Below, piece by piece: positions 52,528 to 57,637 of a DNA stretch of 64,000 nucleotides; the first letter of the stretch is position 1; each line of letters begins with the position of its first letter. Source of the stretch: Providencia hangzhouensis. Lineage in GTDB: Bacteria > Pseudomonadota > Gammaproteobacteria > Enterobacterales > Enterobacteriaceae. The notes below the pieces were generated by a model. The model had not been told where the DNA came from. It saw only the letters and a list, made by a program, of their open reading frames with translations, and ran no database searches. Both the position numbers and the translations under genes were made by a program. The stretch is taken from contig NZ_CP135052.1 of assembly GCF_029193595.2 (NCBI RefSeq), forward strand, positions 682,001 through 746,000. The letters are read 5' to 3'.

Positions 52528-53823
52528 ATGAAACTGTATAATTTAAAAGATAACAATGAACAAGTAAGTTTTGCACAAGCGGTTAAGCAGGGGTTAGGTA
52601 AGCAACAAGGTTTATTTTTTCCTCAAGACTTACCTGAGTTTACAGCGGCTGAAATCGACGAATTATTAAAATTAGATTTCGTCACACGTAGCAGCCGAAT
52701 TTTAAGTGCCTTTATTGGTGATGAAATTCCACAAGAAGAATTAGCTGCACGTGTTAAAACCGCGTTTGCTTTTCCTGCGCCAGTTTCTAAGGTTGAAGGT
52801 GATGTAGCAACGTTGGAGTTATATCATGGGCCAACACTCGCATTTAAAGACTTCGGTGGCAGATTTATGGCTCAGGCATTGGGCCAAGTAGCTGGTGAGC
52901 AGCCGGTGACCATTTTGACTGCTACTTCTGGGGATACAGGAGCCGCGGTTGCACACGCATTCTATCGTCTTAAAAACGTGCAAGTTGTTATTCTCTATCC
53001 AGAAGGAAAAATTAGCCCGCTGCAAGAGAAACTCTTCTGCACGCTGGGTGAAAATATTCATACGGTTGCGATTAAAGATGACTTCGATGCATGCCAGGCA
53101 TTAGTAAAACAATCATTTGATGATGAAGAGCTGAAAAAGGCGTTGTATTTAAACTCGGCGAACTCGATCAATATCAGTCGTTTGTTAGCACAAATTTGTT
53201 ATTACTTCGAAGCCGTCGCGCAGATCCCAGCAGAAAAACGTGATCAATTAGTGATCTCGGTTCCGAGTGGTAATTTTGGTGACCTTACGGCAGGTTTATT
53301 AGCTAAATCAATGGGCCTACCTGTTAAACGCTTTATTGCAGCAACTAACGTAAATGACACTGTGCCGCGTTACCTTGTTGATGGGCAATGGAAACCAAAG
53401 CAAACTGTGGCAACATTATCGAACGCCATGGATGTTAGCCAGCCAAACAACTGGCCTCGTATTGAAGAGTTATTCCGCCGTAAAGGTTGGTCCCTTGATG
53501 AATTAGGCCATGGAGCGGTGAGTGACGACGTGACTAAAGAGACAGTACGTGAATTAGATAAAAAAGGGTATTTATCTGAGCCACATGCTGCGGTTGCTTA
53601 TCGTGTGCTTCGTGACCAGTTGCAAGAAGGTGAATACGGGCTGTTTTTAGGCACGGCACACCCAGCTAAGTTTAAAGAAAGTGTTGAAGAAATTCTTAAT
53701 AAGGCAATACCTTTACCGAAAGAGTTAGCAGAGCGTGCGGAACTACCACTCCTCTCACACTTTTTACCATCTGACTTTGCACAATTACGCGCATTTTTAA
53801 TGAAATTAGCACCTAAGCAATAA
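52528..53823 (+). CDS. thrC: Threonine synthase
   Basis: A PLP enzyme converting O-phosphohomoserine to threonine, the last step of the pathway. 431 residues. The PLP lysine is K107 in PTLAFKDFGGRF; the TSGDTGAAVAHAF loop binds the cofactor phosphate and GTAHPAKF is near the end. It starts three bases after the thrB stop and ends the operon at a strong terminator. Confidence 0.97.
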   Translation: MKLYNLKDNNEQVSFAQAVKQGLGKQQGLFFPQDLPEFTAAEIDELLKLDFVTRSSRILSAFIGDEIPQEELAARVKTAFAFPAPVSKVEGDVATLELYHGPTLAFKDFGGRFMAQALGQVAGEQPVTILTATSGDTGAAVAHAFYRLKNVQVVILYPEGKISPLQEKLFCTLGENIHTVAIKDDFDACQALVKQSFDDEELKKALYLNSANSINISRLLAQICYYFEAVAQIPAEKRDQLVISVPSGNFGDLTAGLLAKSMGLPVKRFIAATNVNDTVPRYLVDGQWKPKQTVATLSNAMDVSQPNNWPRIEELFRRKGWSLDELGHGAVSDDVTKETVRELDKKGYLSEPHAAVAYRVLRDQLQEGEYGLFLGTAHPAKFKESVEEILNKAIPLPKELAERAELPLLSHFLPSDFAQLRAFLMKLAPKQ

Positions 53824-53840
53824 AAATTGCAAGTGTACGA

Positions 53841-53866
53841 AAAACGGAAGCGAAAGCTTCCGTTTT
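53841..53866 (+). terminator. Rho-independent terminator of the thr operon
   Basis: AAAACGGAAGC-GAAA-GCTTCCGTTTT, an 11-bp stem with a GNRA loop and T run. Confidence 0.95.
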
Positions 53867-53949
53867 TATTGGTAATACCATCTTTTATAAAGATAATTAT
53901 ATGGTTTCATATTGCCACATCACTTATTCACTTCTAACGGATTTATTTG

Positions 53950-54609
53950 TCACATTGAGCTAATGCTAATACCATCGTGCCCATCTCTACCGCCATCAGG
54001 TCCACCGCGTCCTCCTTTTCCTCCTTGGCTACCATTGCCCCCATTTCCACCATTACCACTACCAGAGCCGTTGCCCCCATTACCTCCGTTACCGCCATTA
54101 GTTCCACCATGTCCCCCATTTCCCCCATTGCCATTTACAGTTCCATTCCCGCCGTTCCCACCACTACCACCACCATCTCCATCACCGCCATTTCCGCCAT
54201 CACCTCCAGTTACACTGCCATTACCGCCATTTCCTCCATTGCCATTACTGCCTTTTTCTGCGTTTCCGCCATTGCTACCATTACCGTTATTTGATCCTGT
54301 TCCGCCATTCCCTCCATTTTGGCCATCACCACCGTGTCCACCATGACCACCGTTACCACCATGGCCACCTTGACTATCATTTCCAGCGTGACCCGAATTT
54401 CCGTTTTGTCCATAACTTACAAAGCTAAAAATTTTAGAATAGTAATATTGGCCATGGAGTATCGAACATACTTTATTATTAATTTCATTAATATTGAGTT
54501 CATTTTTTAATAAACAGTTAGATGGAGTATTAAATAAGGAGTGAGAGTATGCTGAAAATGAAATAGAACTAATTAATAAGACGCCAAGTGAAATGTAATT
54601 TTTATACAT
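53950..54609 (-). CDS. Exported Gly/Asn-rich repeat protein
   Basis: A 219-residue protein of unknown function. Residues 1-23 are a signal peptide (MYKNYISLGVLLISSISFSA). Residues 24-68 form a short non-repetitive head with two cysteines (C32, C48), which may pair. From about 69 to 207 it is almost entirely Gly-Gly-X with X mostly Asn, plus His, Asp and Ser (runs such as GGNGGNG, GGHGGHGG). The last residues are GISISSM. GGAGG precedes ATG 54609. GGX repeats can form polyglycine-II bundles, as in some phage adhesins; that fold is inference. The opposite strand is open as a Pro-rich shadow frame. It lies 61 bases downstream of the short paralogue, likely in the same transcript. Confidence 0.8.
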   Translation of the reverse strand: MYKNYISLGVLLISSISFSAYSHSLFNTPSNCLLKNELNINEINNKVCSILHGQYYYSKIFSFVSYGQNGNSGHAGNDSQGGHGGNGGHGGHGGDGQNGGNGGTGSNNGNGSNGGNAEKGSNGNGGNGGNGSVTGGDGGNGGDGDGGGSGGNGGNGTVNGNGGNGGHGGTNGGNGGNGGNGSGSGNGGNGGNGSQGGKGGRGGPDGGRDGHDGISISSM

Positions 54610-54670
54610 GGTAAATTCCTCCGTTCCCCCCTCATCGAGTGAGGAGGGAAATATTTAGTGACGAGATATA

Positions 54671-54856
54671 TTATCTACCGTTGCCGCCATTACCGCCGTT
54701 ACCACCATGGCCGCCATTCCCTCCATTTCCTCCATGGTTTTGTTCATAAATAGTAGAATAAGTCGAAGTATTGTCAGAATGTTTTTCTTGGAAAGAAGTT
54801 GCAGATGCTAGAATTGGGAATAATAAAGATACTATGACAATAGATGCTTTATACAT
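54671..54856 (-). CDS. Short exported Gly/Asn-rich peptide
   Basis: A 61-residue product of unknown function. The signal peptide MYKASIVIVSLLFPILASAT closely resembles that of the 63-residue gene upstream. The mature part is a polar stretch (SFQEKHSDNTSTYSTIYEQN) and then HGGNGGNGGHGGNGGNGGNG, a short form of the repeat of the next gene. GAGGA lies before ATG 54856. The upstream region holds a 15-base motif shared with the 63-residue gene. It might also be a truncated copy of the longer gene. Confidence 0.72.
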   Translation of the reverse strand: MYKASIVIVSLLFPILASATSFQEKHSDNTSTYSTIYEQNHGGNGGNGGHGGNGGNGGNGR

Positions 54857-55275
54857 ATAAAATCCTCGATTAAAAGTTTAAATTGAAGTGAACTGCAAGG
54901 AAATTGTAATTCATGATTTTGAATAAGTAATTAATATTTTCATCTAAGAGTGAAATTAAATTTAGTCCACTGTTAATATAAAATAACATTATTTATTTTT
55001 TTTGTGCGTATTTTAAATGATTTATTAATAATGAATCATTTGAGATAATTAATTAATAATTTGCCAGGTAATGTTTTGTTTTAAAATTAATTATCATAAG
55101 ATTAGGGTTTTATGGGGTAGGATAGTAAAGTGGAATATATTAAAATACAATTCCACTTTACCATTGATTTTAACAGCATATAGGCCTATGTTTCCTAATG
55201 TAGTATATTAAAAGGATATAAGGCTATATATTATGAAGGGAATTACCTTAAGCTTTGTTTGATGTCTTCTGAATT
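54857..55275. other. A+T-rich spacer with inverted repeat
   Basis: No gene is supported in these 420 bases. They contain the 15-base motif shared with the 63-residue gene (ATTGAAGTGAACTGC on the plus strand, 54882-54896) and a perfect 12-bp inverted repeat, GTAAAGTGGAAT (55125-55136) with ATTCCACTTTAC (55150-55161), 13 bases apart. No T run follows on either strand, so it could be an operator or an RNA hairpin of the 63-residue gene's 3' end. Confidence 0.55.
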
Positions 55276-55467
55276 TTATTTGATGTTCAGCCAAACATCA
55301 TCATCATCTCCTTTTACGTTAAACCAAACATCATCATCATCCCCGTTATAGGCTACGTTTACGTCTATATCTAGGATAGGTGGCTCTGGTGGGAAAGGAA
55401 GAATAGGAGTAGCGAAAGAGAGAGTTGGAAATAATAAAAATGCAAATATGATTGATTTTTTAAACAT
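55276..55467 (-). CDS. Exported Asp-rich tandem repeat peptide
   Basis: A 63-residue product of unknown function. The signal peptide MFKKSIIFAFLLFPTLSFA matches that of the short Gly-rich peptide. The mature part of about 44 residues has a proline-rich segment (PILPFPPEPP), the stretch ILDIDVNVAYN, and two tandem 11-residue repeats GDDDDVWFNVK and GDDDDVWLNIK ending the protein. The DDDD-Val-Trp unit looks like a calcium or cation-binding loop, but this is inference. AAAGGTGA precedes ATG 55467. Confidence 0.72.
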   Translation of the reverse strand: MFKKSIIFAFLLFPTLSFATPILPFPPEPPILDIDVNVAYNGDDDDVWFNVKGDDDDVWLNIK

Positions 55468-55676
55468 ATAATCACCTTTTAAAGTTAGTATTGAAATGAA
55501 CTGCCTAGAAATAATAACTTATTTTTCTTGATGTTCAATAAATATTCAATCAATTTAGTAATAAAAAATGAAATTGGTCAAATAAAAATCTATTTGTTGT
55601 GTCTATAACTAAATTTTATTTTTTTAATTTAAAACCATATTAATATTTATTTAATAATATGGTTTTAAAGTTCTAA

Positions 55677-56141
55677 TTAATTATTTTTTGAATATCCTAT
55701 TATTTTACTTTGTATAGAAGCAGATGAACTATTTTTATGAAAGTTTAACATGGTGACGGCTTTTTCATTTTCATTCATATCGGAAAATGGTTTTGCAACT
55801 TTTACCATCGATTTTTTATAGTTAGGTGATTGGTTTTGGTGGCTACTGATCATATTCTGCATTGCTGGGGAGGTACTATTTTGAGTAAAATTCAATGCGG
55901 TAGCAGCTTGAGTATGTCTATCTAATTGAAGAAATGATTGGGTTGAGTTGATATTATCGTTGACTGAAATACCCGCCTTACTCAAGTGGTCATTAATCGA
56001 TTTTTGATTAGAATACGATGTGTTATTCTCAGTGAAATTTAATGCATTCGCTGCATTATAATGTATTTCTTTTTCTGTTTGAGCGGTTGCTACATGTGTT
56101 GTTACAGTTACAAGTGTTAAAGCAAAAATAATTTTTTTCAT
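55677..56141 (-). CDS. SilE/PcoE-like periplasmic repeat protein with reduced metal ligands
   Basis: A 154-residue exported protein: signal peptide 1-20 (cut after ATA), then three repeats at about 31-52, 79-104 and 128-153, each with A-x-x-x-L-N-F-x-x-N-x-(S/T)-S. Repeat 2 lines up without gaps with the repeat of SilE/PcoE silver/copper-binding proteins, as I recall their sequence (A-A, N, A, Q, M, S-H-Q shared), but the His and Met of the H-x2-M ligand pairs are mostly Leu, Asn or Phe. The gene is downstream of cusS on the same strand, exactly where silE lies relative to silRS. Homology is inferred from pattern and position. Reduced or altered metal binding is likely. Confidence 0.68.
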   Translation of the reverse strand: MKKIIFALTLVTVTTHVATAQTEKEIHYNAANALNFTENNTSYSNQKSINDHLSKAGISVNDNINSTQSFLQLDRHTQAATALNFTQNSTSPAMQNMISSHQNQSPNYKKSMVKVAKPFSDMNENEKAVTMLNFHKNSSSASIQSKIIGYSKNN

Positions 56142-56209
56142 TACAAATCCTTATTAAGTTAGATAATTTATCTTGTAACTATAATAAGGCTTTATTTCTG
56201 TCTGAATAC

Positions 56210-56226
56210 TGACAACAAGATGACAA
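56210..56226 (-). promoter_or_regulatory. Candidate CusR site upstream of the silE-like gene
   Basis: On the plus strand, two TGACAA hexamers (56210 and 56221) are spaced exactly 11 bp apart, one helical turn, as OmpR/PhoB-type regulators prefer. TGACAA is also the half-site core of the CusR box between cusR and cusC. A TATTAT -10-like hexamer lies downstream on the minus strand. Confidence 0.5.
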
Positions 56227-56248
56227 AATTGCCATTTATGGTAGATAT

Positions 56249-57637
56249 TTAATTTGGTTCCTTAGGTAAAAATACAGTAAAACGTGTTGAAAAATCATCT
56301 GATGTTACAGTGATTCTTCCCTTATGCGCTAATATGATTGATTTGACGATAGCCAACCCAATTCCGCTCCCTTCATTTTTTCTTTGTCTTGATTTATCTA
56401 CTCGATAAAATCTGTCAAAGAGTTTTGCTAAATGTTCTTCTGGTATTTTCATGCCGGGATTGCTGATAATTAATTCAATACCATTTTTTACATTCGAAAT
56501 ATTAATACTGACAGAATCCCCCTTTGGGGTATAGCGGATAGCATTTGATATTAAGTTAGTAATTGCTCTTCTTAACATATCTTTATCGGCCATAATAGGG
56601 TCTGTATCACCAATTAGCTTAAGCTTTATTTCATTCTCTTCCGCGAGATATTCAAAATAATCAAATATGAGCTCTATTTCAGTTTTAATATTAATAACTT
56701 TTTTCTCAGGGATAAGCCTATTATCATCTGCTTGAGCAAGAAAAAGCATATCAGAGATCATTCGTGATAGACGGTTATATTCTTCTAAATTAGAATATAA
56801 CACTTCAACGAGTTCTTCTTTACTGCGATTTTTACTCAAAGATATTTGGGTTTCAGTCATTAAATTAGTGATAGGTGTACGCATTTCATGAGCTATATCT
56901 GCTGAGAAATTCGTTTGTCTTACGAAAACATCTTCAATTTTGACTAACATCTGATTAAATGATTTTGTTAATTGTTTTAATTCATTAGGTACAGAATCAG
57001 GGTCTAAACGCACACTTAAGTTTTCGGAAGTGACATTTTTGATTTCATCGCTCACATCTTTAAGGGGTTTTAATCCTTTAATTACAAGGAAATAAACGAC
57101 AAGAATAGTAAATAAGCACAATATAATAGCGCTGACAATTAAATTATTTATTAATGAACTCAGATAATCATGATGAAAATTTAATGATAATGCAGTAACC
57201 AACCGATATTGTTTAGACTCTGAAGGGGAATCTACCTGAATAATAATTTCAGATAGGCGATAATTTTTAAGCTCTTCTTGGTTATTTTTATGAGGATCAT
57301 AATTTTTTAAGTACGTAATGAGCTTATCTGTTGCATTGGGAGATATTAATTCATTTCCTTTTTTATCAATGAGATAAATAGTAATGTCTTGGTGCTCATT
57401 AATAATGGTTTTAATACGTGCATATTGTTCACTTTGTGAGTCTGTATTGTTATTTAACAAGCTACGGATCGTTAGGTTCAACTGGTTAAGTGTGTATTCA
57501 TCTTGCTGTTTAAAATGCAACATAACCGAATTGATCATGATCGAGCTAAATAGTAACAAGGCGAGGGAGAGAGTAATACTGATCAAAACAATAAGACGAA
57601 TTGAAATTGAGACAGGAGATCGAAAAAATTTAATCAT
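56249..57637 (-). CDS. cusS: Copper/silver-sensing histidine kinase
   Basis: A 462-residue sensor kinase of the CusS/SilS/PcoS type. Helix 1 near residues 12-32, a periplasmic sensor domain of about 130 residues, helix 2 near 165-190, a HAMP domain, then HisKA with the phosphorylated His in [11 protein letters not shown] and an HATPase domain ([23 protein letters not shown]). The preceding TTG is in frame (57652), but ATG 57637 is the likely start and overlaps the cusR stop by eight bases. It phosphorylates CusR in response to periplasmic Cu(I)/Ag(I). Confidence 0.93.

Follow-up and report, generated by a model that had tools for sequence, protein, structure and literature searches.

A conserved pair of glycine-repeat genes in Providencia, read as a possible operon for exported polyglycine-II proteins

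Introduction

A stretch of 64,000 nucleotides from Providencia hangzhouensis (NZ_CP135052.1, positions 682,001 to 746,000; the window hereafter) carries three adjacent open reading frames (ORFs) on its minus strand, flanked on one side by thrC (52528-53823) and on the other by a cus-like copper/silver locus with a CusS sensor domain and a response regulator. Two of these ORFs encode proteins with GGN repeats, a large one (type D; 53950..54609, 219 aa) and a small one (54671..54856, 61 aa), and the third (55276..55467, 63 aa) encodes DDDDVW repeats. An earlier sequence-only reading had described three such genes at the boundary between the thr operon and a metal-efflux locus, and the genes, their strand and both flanks are confirmed here. 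Judging by the comparison of genomes, the conserved core of the locus is the small-large GGN pair. We read this pair, with a probability of about 0.45, as a two-gene operon for exported polyglycine-II proteins that form a structural or adhesive material. The components of this reading differ in strength. Sequence comparison gives good support to the view that the small and the large GGN protein are real and belong to one old family, and their export is likely from their putative leaders; the proposed function as a structural or adhesive material is a guess.

The GGN pair and its conservation

Both GGN proteins begin with a putative signal peptide. In the glycine-rich large protein it comprises about 22 residues (54544..54609, minus strand) with a charged start, a hydrophobic core and small residues, and in the small protein it is encoded by 54797..54856 of the same strand, with cleavage probable after A19 (LASA). 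The signal peptides of all three proteins of the locus were judged from sequence by eye, that of the large protein also from a helix in its structural model. Behind the signal peptide, the small protein consists of a short linker, a (GGX)n run and one terminal residue. Tracts of whole GGX triplets followed by a terminal residue are found in 35 of 38 small GGN sequences (36 of them distinct), a set made up of 19 loci, L078 and 18 database proteins. In the large protein, residues 85-219 (53953..54357, minus strand) make up the repeat domain, which contains 70 glycines in 135 residues. Its autocorrelation is highest at lags of 3, 37, 6, 12, 9, 15, 34 and 25 residues, and the domain therefore appears to be built of triplets arranged in units of 12-13 residues. 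In a second genome of the same species (G426), the large protein is 26 residues shorter than in the window, the small protein 15 longer and the DDDDVW protein 11 shorter, and each of these differences amounts to whole repeat units.

A profile hidden Markov model (HMM) of the large protein matches 20 of the 24 Providencia genomes. A search for the small gene detected it in 18 of 60 relatives, each of them a member of the genus, and reading added two further genomes (G001 and G426); wherever it is found, it adjoins the large gene. On a thrC tree of 26 rows (23 from the genus, with G426 left out, and three from the outgroup), 9 of whose 23 inner branches are well supported, four changes of GGN presence are needed. 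This pattern would agree with a single gain at the root of Providencia and three losses.

The ratio of nonsynonymous to synonymous substitution rates (dN/dS) was determined for ten species pairs of our own choice. For the large gene it lies between 0.06 and 0.15 as a whole and between 0.02 and 0.12 after residue 80; synonymous changes between the species pairs are many, and in several pairs the synonymous sites are saturated. The small gene as a whole has values of 0.06-0.26. Constraint is weaker over its first 40 codons, with values of 0.06-0.58, apart from one pair that reaches 2.75 on a single synonymous change. These substitution patterns indicate purifying selection on the large repeat domain. 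Low dN/dS and numerous synonymous changes in the repeat part of the large gene, together with conservation of the pair across the genus, show that the GGN repeats are no chance ORFs.

Promoter-like module and intercistronic stem-loop

A module resembling a sigma-70 promoter is situated 5' of the small gene (54892..54931, minus strand). In the window it consists of a weak -35-like hexamer (54926-54931), a -10 hexamer TACAAT (54903-54908) and the pentamer GCAGT (54892-54896) near the expected transcription start. GCAGT is invariant in all 19 loci compared, and in each of them the best-scoring -10 hexamer (TAnnnT) stands 6-7 bases before it. The best -35-like hexamer is often similar to TTGATT, with a spacing of 15-17 bases (16 in 17 of the 19 loci), and is poor in the window; all hexamers are the best-scoring ones within a set range, as picked by a script. 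When the genome of the window was searched with a 24-base promoter segment, allowing up to three mismatches, the sole site was the one before the small GGN gene. In eight other cassettes of glycine-rich genes, the 130 bases that precede the cassette contain no GCAGT.

Between the two genes lies a stem-loop of 11 pairs (54624..54650, minus strand). A single base separates its end from GGAG (54619-54622), the Shine-Dalgarno-like sequence of the large gene. A stem of 8-14 pairs is present at this position in 19 of 19 loci, adjoining or overlapping the GGAG ribosome site, with folding energies that correspond to z values of -3.0 to -5.4 relative to mononucleotide shuffles. A likely role of the stem-loop would be to make the expression of the small and large genes unequal. 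Rfam gives no match in 53800-56300, and a scan of the region for terminators found none.

Predicted fold of the large protein

The large repeat domain displays the sequence hallmark of polyglycine-II, namely G-X-X triplets in short runs between short loops, and the order of its units is conserved across genera. AlphaFold2 (AF2) models of the whole large protein and of the domain alone structurally match the polyproline-II (PPII) bundle antifreeze proteins (AFPs) of springtails, GrAFP (7jjv) and the snow flea AFP (2pne), which are the best matches of these low-confidence models. The whole-protein model, also of low confidence, contains a helix at residues 2-19 and no strand of three or more residues. 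With low confidence, the domain is predicted to be a bundle of antiparallel polyglycine-II/polyproline-II helices, each made of about three GGX triplets and followed by a turn. Of its 65 non-glycine residues, which include 1 Ala, 2 Val, 4 Thr and 11 Ser, 15% belong to the group A, V, T, I, L, M and F and 83% to the group N, D, H, S, Q, K, R and E.

In certain aspects this protein is reminiscent of known systems. The springtail bundle "appears unique to Collembola" according to a 2023 paper (PMC10235112), which describes how small residues, with abundant Ala alongside Ser, Thr and Val, form a flat face. Unlike the springtail proteins, the GGN protein is bacterial and operonic, with a predicted exterior rich in Asn, Asp, Ser and His, and no flat, Ala-rich ice-binding face is apparent from the composition of its repeat domain. 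For gp38 of phage S16, PMC6851490 describes a polyglycine sandwich of more than 50% glycine, with ten glycine-rich motifs, short segments between them and variable loops. The large repeat domain is likewise about half glycine; gp38, however, belongs to a phage and carries an attachment domain and a beta-helix, whereas the large GGN protein would be a free-standing exported protein of the cell. In mycobacterial PE_PGRS proteins, the GGX triplets have been proposed to form polyglycine-II sandwiches that tolerate whole-unit indels (PMC10216338). GGX triplets and whole-unit changes of the repeats are shared with the GGN proteins, but Pfam detects no PE domain in the large protein, which has a signal-peptide-like start instead and a polar composition, unlike the hydrophobic "sail foot" of PE_PGRS. 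We rate the finding as a known rare fold, as predicted, in a new exported and operonic bacterial setting.

Interpretation and alternatives

In the mechanism that we propose, the small protein, being a GGX run without turns, would be a single polyglycine-II strand and would pack by backbone hydrogen bonds on its own kind or on the bundle of the large protein. The stem-loop would set unequal amounts of the two proteins, and together they may assemble into a structural or adhesive material, hydrophilic and rich in Asn, located in the periplasm, at the cell surface or outside the cell. Whole triplets or helix-turn units could be gained or lost without breaking the lattice, and the size differences among the repeats would fit such an assembly because it tolerates the gain or loss of whole units. 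A wider proposal, in which the cassettes of the Enterobacterales combine type D bundles with one-strand triplet peptides, (GGN)n or (TNG)n, and these co-assemble extracytoplasmically into a polyglycine-II lattice material, seems doubtful to us. If it is true, the cassette lattice would be a bacterial counterpart of silk or collagen, in which strand number and length are varied freely by repeat gain and loss, and it would be built by a free-standing fold that the 2023 paper calls seemingly unique to springtails. A constrained, exported bacterial bundle would open the function and assembly of this fold to bacterial genetics.

Several observations weigh against the reading of the pair as an operon for such a material. 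The AF2 models have low confidence (mean predicted local distance difference test score 56.2 and predicted template modelling score 0.39 for the whole protein, 52.2 and 0.44 for the domain alone), and they are not independent of each other. The best Foldseek E-value is 1.8e-3, with TM-scores of 0.10-0.34, and 2pne, released in 2008, was presumably part of the AlphaFold training set. Co-assembly of the small and large proteins is a guess from their shared chemistry. Covariation in the stem-loop is weak: RNAalifold finds 8 pairs in an 18-row alignment, and support for the structure comes from the individual sequences rather than from covariation, because only one pair has a two-sided change. The family is rare and patchy outside Providencia, and in G012 the repeats are shrunken, still in frame. 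Neutral decay in related strains, which the sequence-only reading had named as evidence against functional genes, is for the most part absent, the large gene being free of it. However, three of the 38 small GGN sequences (P0014, P0016 and P0017) look frameshifted in the tract, as does one of five DDDDVW sequences (P0024), which gives each of these copies a different C-terminus, and reading of the junctions confirms that four of the 24 genus genomes lack the pair (G005, G013, G019 and G021). The frameshifted copies may reflect phase variation or decay in some strains.

As an alternative, the polyglycine bundle could be a scaffold that shows its turn loops to a host surface, to other bacteria or to phage, by analogy with gp38 and the mycobacterial PGRS proteins. 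The same kind of fold is predicted, the glycine content is comparable (over 50% in gp38, 70 of 135 residues in the large domain) and sizes are polymorphic within a species. Recognition loops should be hypervariable, however, whereas the repeat core aligns across genera, the most variable part of the large protein is the N-terminal segment ahead of the repeats, and no anchoring domain was found by Pfam; we consider a recognition or adhesin role unlikely. That the GGN proteins are secreted antimicrobial peptides or bacteriocins is improbable, even though the small exported peptides are glycine-rich and have a weak similarity to the YxzE-like family of Pfam, a score that low-complexity glycine probably explains. 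Leaders of class II microcins comprise 15-18 residues and end in a double glycine, according to PMC10233263, whereas the small GGN leader is hydrophobic with an AxA-like end and has no double glycine. By eye and without a profile search of the neighbours, no dedicated exporter, peptidase-containing ABC transporter or immunity gene was recognised between 50 and 60 kb of the window on either strand or in three other junctions (L027, L036 and L037; both strands, ORFs of at least 150 aa); for the remaining junctions, the reading covered minus-strand ORFs or a part of the junction.

Ice binding, or protection against freezing or desiccation as by the springtail proteins, would agree with the antifreeze proteins as best structural matches and with the relatives in Rahnella and in Pantoea, many from plants, but is very improbable in our estimation, as the non-glycine residues of the large domain are mostly polar where the springtail proteins have their Ala-rich flat face. 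To our knowledge, Providencia and Xenorhabdus are not known as cold-adapted. We find it highly improbable that the GGN proteins are metal-binding accessories of the adjacent cus/sil-like copper-silver locus. The GGN genes do adjoin CusRS-like and SilE-like genes in the window, and His residues and DDDDVW could bind metal; yet by our reading of the site, 11 of the 24 genus genomes have both GGN and cus, nine have GGN without cus, three have cus without GGN and one has neither. Because GGN-only and cus-only genomes occur, the pair is independent of the metal locus, and it has a promoter-like module of its own. Finally, repeat-number differences, frameshifted copies and the weak constraint on DDDDVW are what non-functional low-complexity ORFs kept by repeat slippage might display, but this explanation is scarcely credible in view of the purifying selection on the large repeat domain, the unit order that is conserved across genera, and the conserved promoter-like module and stem-loop.

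The DDDDVW gene

The DDDDVW protein combines a leader that is paralogous to that of the small GGN protein with a mature part of two DDDDVW units. The sequence-only reading had given a leader pattern for these two proteins, which is exact for both, but its description as near-identical was too strong, since a direct comparison of the signal peptides gives 11 identical residues out of 20. The likeness goes beyond chance because the 80 bases 5' of the two start codons align as well, with a local score of 54, where the best of 2000 mononucleotide shuffles reached 38. The promoter region and 5' untranslated region (UTR) of the DDDDVW gene (55468..55547, minus strand) resemble the corresponding region of the small GGN gene, the GCAGT box included. 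Its promoter-like hexamers (55538-55511) are one of 16 promoter-like sites in the scanned region, where 13.8 are expected by chance. On the basis of the similar leaders and 5' regions, we interpret the DDDDVW gene as a copy of part of the small GGN gene, in which the promoter region, 5' UTR and leader were kept and the mature part is different; promoter region and leader would have been copied onto a different short repeat. The gene is found in three of 60 relatives and in G426, that is, in four of the 24 genus genomes. Five database sequences contain 3, 2, 1, 1 and 0 DDDDVW units, the last being the apparently frameshifted P0024. With dN/dS values of 0.22-0.63 in three pairs, the gene looks young and weakly constrained.

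The proposal of a conserved leader attached to diversified cargo thus survives for two of the genes, as small GGN and DDDDVW have a common leader, promoter region and 5' UTR with unrelated mature parts. A three-gene family of this kind is not supported, because the conserved unit is the GGN pair, DDDDVW is present in only four of 24 genomes, and the third leader looks generic: the looser version of the leader that had been seen in the large gene shows no kinship by eye. Nor do the mature parts differ completely, as had been stated; both GGN proteins have the GGX triplet repeat, and DDDDVW alone is different.

Family searches

The impression that these proteins belong to no described family is borne out by Pfam, NCBIfam, PHROGs and PADLOC, which give sub-threshold or weak glycine-rich matches at most. 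In the open-access literature, to which the search was confined at the exclusion of subscription papers, no description of a GGN-pair family was found. The large protein matches no Pfam family up to an E-value of 1 and no PHROGs family, and NCBIfam and PADLOC contain no family for any of the three proteins. Plant glycine-rich proteins (Pfam GRP, PF07172) have a signal peptide and glycine-rich repeats. The GGN proteins are similar in this respect, but the small one remains under the GRP threshold (23.3 bits, cut-off 30) and the large one has no match. The similarity of the small protein to the YxzE-like putative bacteriocin family has an E-value of 0.0092 (17.4 bits, cut-off 40), and that to phrog_3284, a family of unknown function, is a weak one within the glycine-rich stretch (E 0.00072, 20.3 bits). 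A profile search of PDB sequences with the family alignment gave one match, uS2m (E 0.033), which was taken as chance, and did not recover the springtail proteins. Searching a protein database with the large protein as query produced a single match, an unconvincing one, among the 8000 candidates richest in common words; glycine-rich words probably flooded this search. Scanning of genome contigs with the protein alignment returned 587 pattern stretches, none of them confirmed by tblastn, perhaps through low-complexity masking. The GGN family is easily missed, its low complexity having probably hidden it from these two sequence searches.

Relatives and further glycine-rich genes

A DNA-pattern scan of the core yielded 12 stretches: eight in Providencia, two in Xenorhabdus, one in Rahnella and one in Mycobacterium with a PGRS-like ORF. 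Where relatives were found in Rahnella inusitata, Xenorhabdus vietnamensis and X. yunnanensis, three to four different glycine-rich genes with signal-like starts stand side by side. Five loci of this type were read on Pantoea plasmids. Three of them have four genes for putatively exported glycine-rich proteins (L070:6026-7653, L071:4373-5984 and L075:5026-6616), one has four and a fifth (L068:3225-4830) and one has three (L067). Genes two and three of the cassette overlap by 4 bases in L068, L070 and L075. A gene-by-gene comparison was made for the record of L070: of the four coding sequences annotated in the cassette, three end at other positions than the cassette ORFs and so were apparently called in another frame, which is a further reason why the family is easily missed. 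One cassette member, the type D protein, aligns along its core with the Providencia large protein across genera.

Of 394 Enterobacterales genomes drawn evenly, two match the Providencia profile at an E-value of 1e-6, and four match a type D profile at 1e-5, namely the window, Rahnella, Pantoea and, weakly, G199, in which no glycine-rich ORF of at least 40 aa was seen. Among E. coli genomes, one of 5426 has a GGN match; strain D8 carries a chromosomal GGN-repeat ORF with a signal-like start (L074:3945-4292) near a site-specific integrase, a recombinase and an HNH endonuclease. Two phage records have short DNA matches, one of them in a tail fibre. In viral contigs the core motif occurs in 34 stretches, and 23 of 29 examined match positions lie in complete ORFs, of which 18 are 289-1001 aa long; one (L084) encodes a type D protein.

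Within Providencia, G007 has a second pair elsewhere (L077:4177-5300, minus strand), in which a (TNG)n protein that has two Cys and a signal-like start precedes a type D protein of 97 aa; by eye, the adjoining ORFs resemble an extracytoplasmic function (ECF) sigma factor and a FecR-like regulator. The Providencia rettgeri plasmid pVCSW10.1 (L073:4834-5313) encodes a 159-aa protein with a signal-like start and several GGN blocks, which are preceded by two Cys. On a megaplasmid of Xenorhabdus bovienii (L072:4140-6068), two glycine-rich repeat proteins without an obvious signal peptide are encoded in line with a pentapeptide-repeat protein and a polyketide synthase.

Neighbouring metal genes

An exported protein of 154 aa is encoded next to the CusRS-like genes of the window (55677-56141, minus strand). 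Its residues 61-144 match the silver-binding SilE (NCBIfam NF047789.1, E 1.8e-7) with 31.5 bits, far below the cut-off of 200, and to judge from this match it is a divergent SilE/PcoE-like relative. In G011 (L024:9421-11932), the cusA-like efflux gene reads as two shorter ORFs; most other cus loci listed have it as a single ORF of about 1045 aa.
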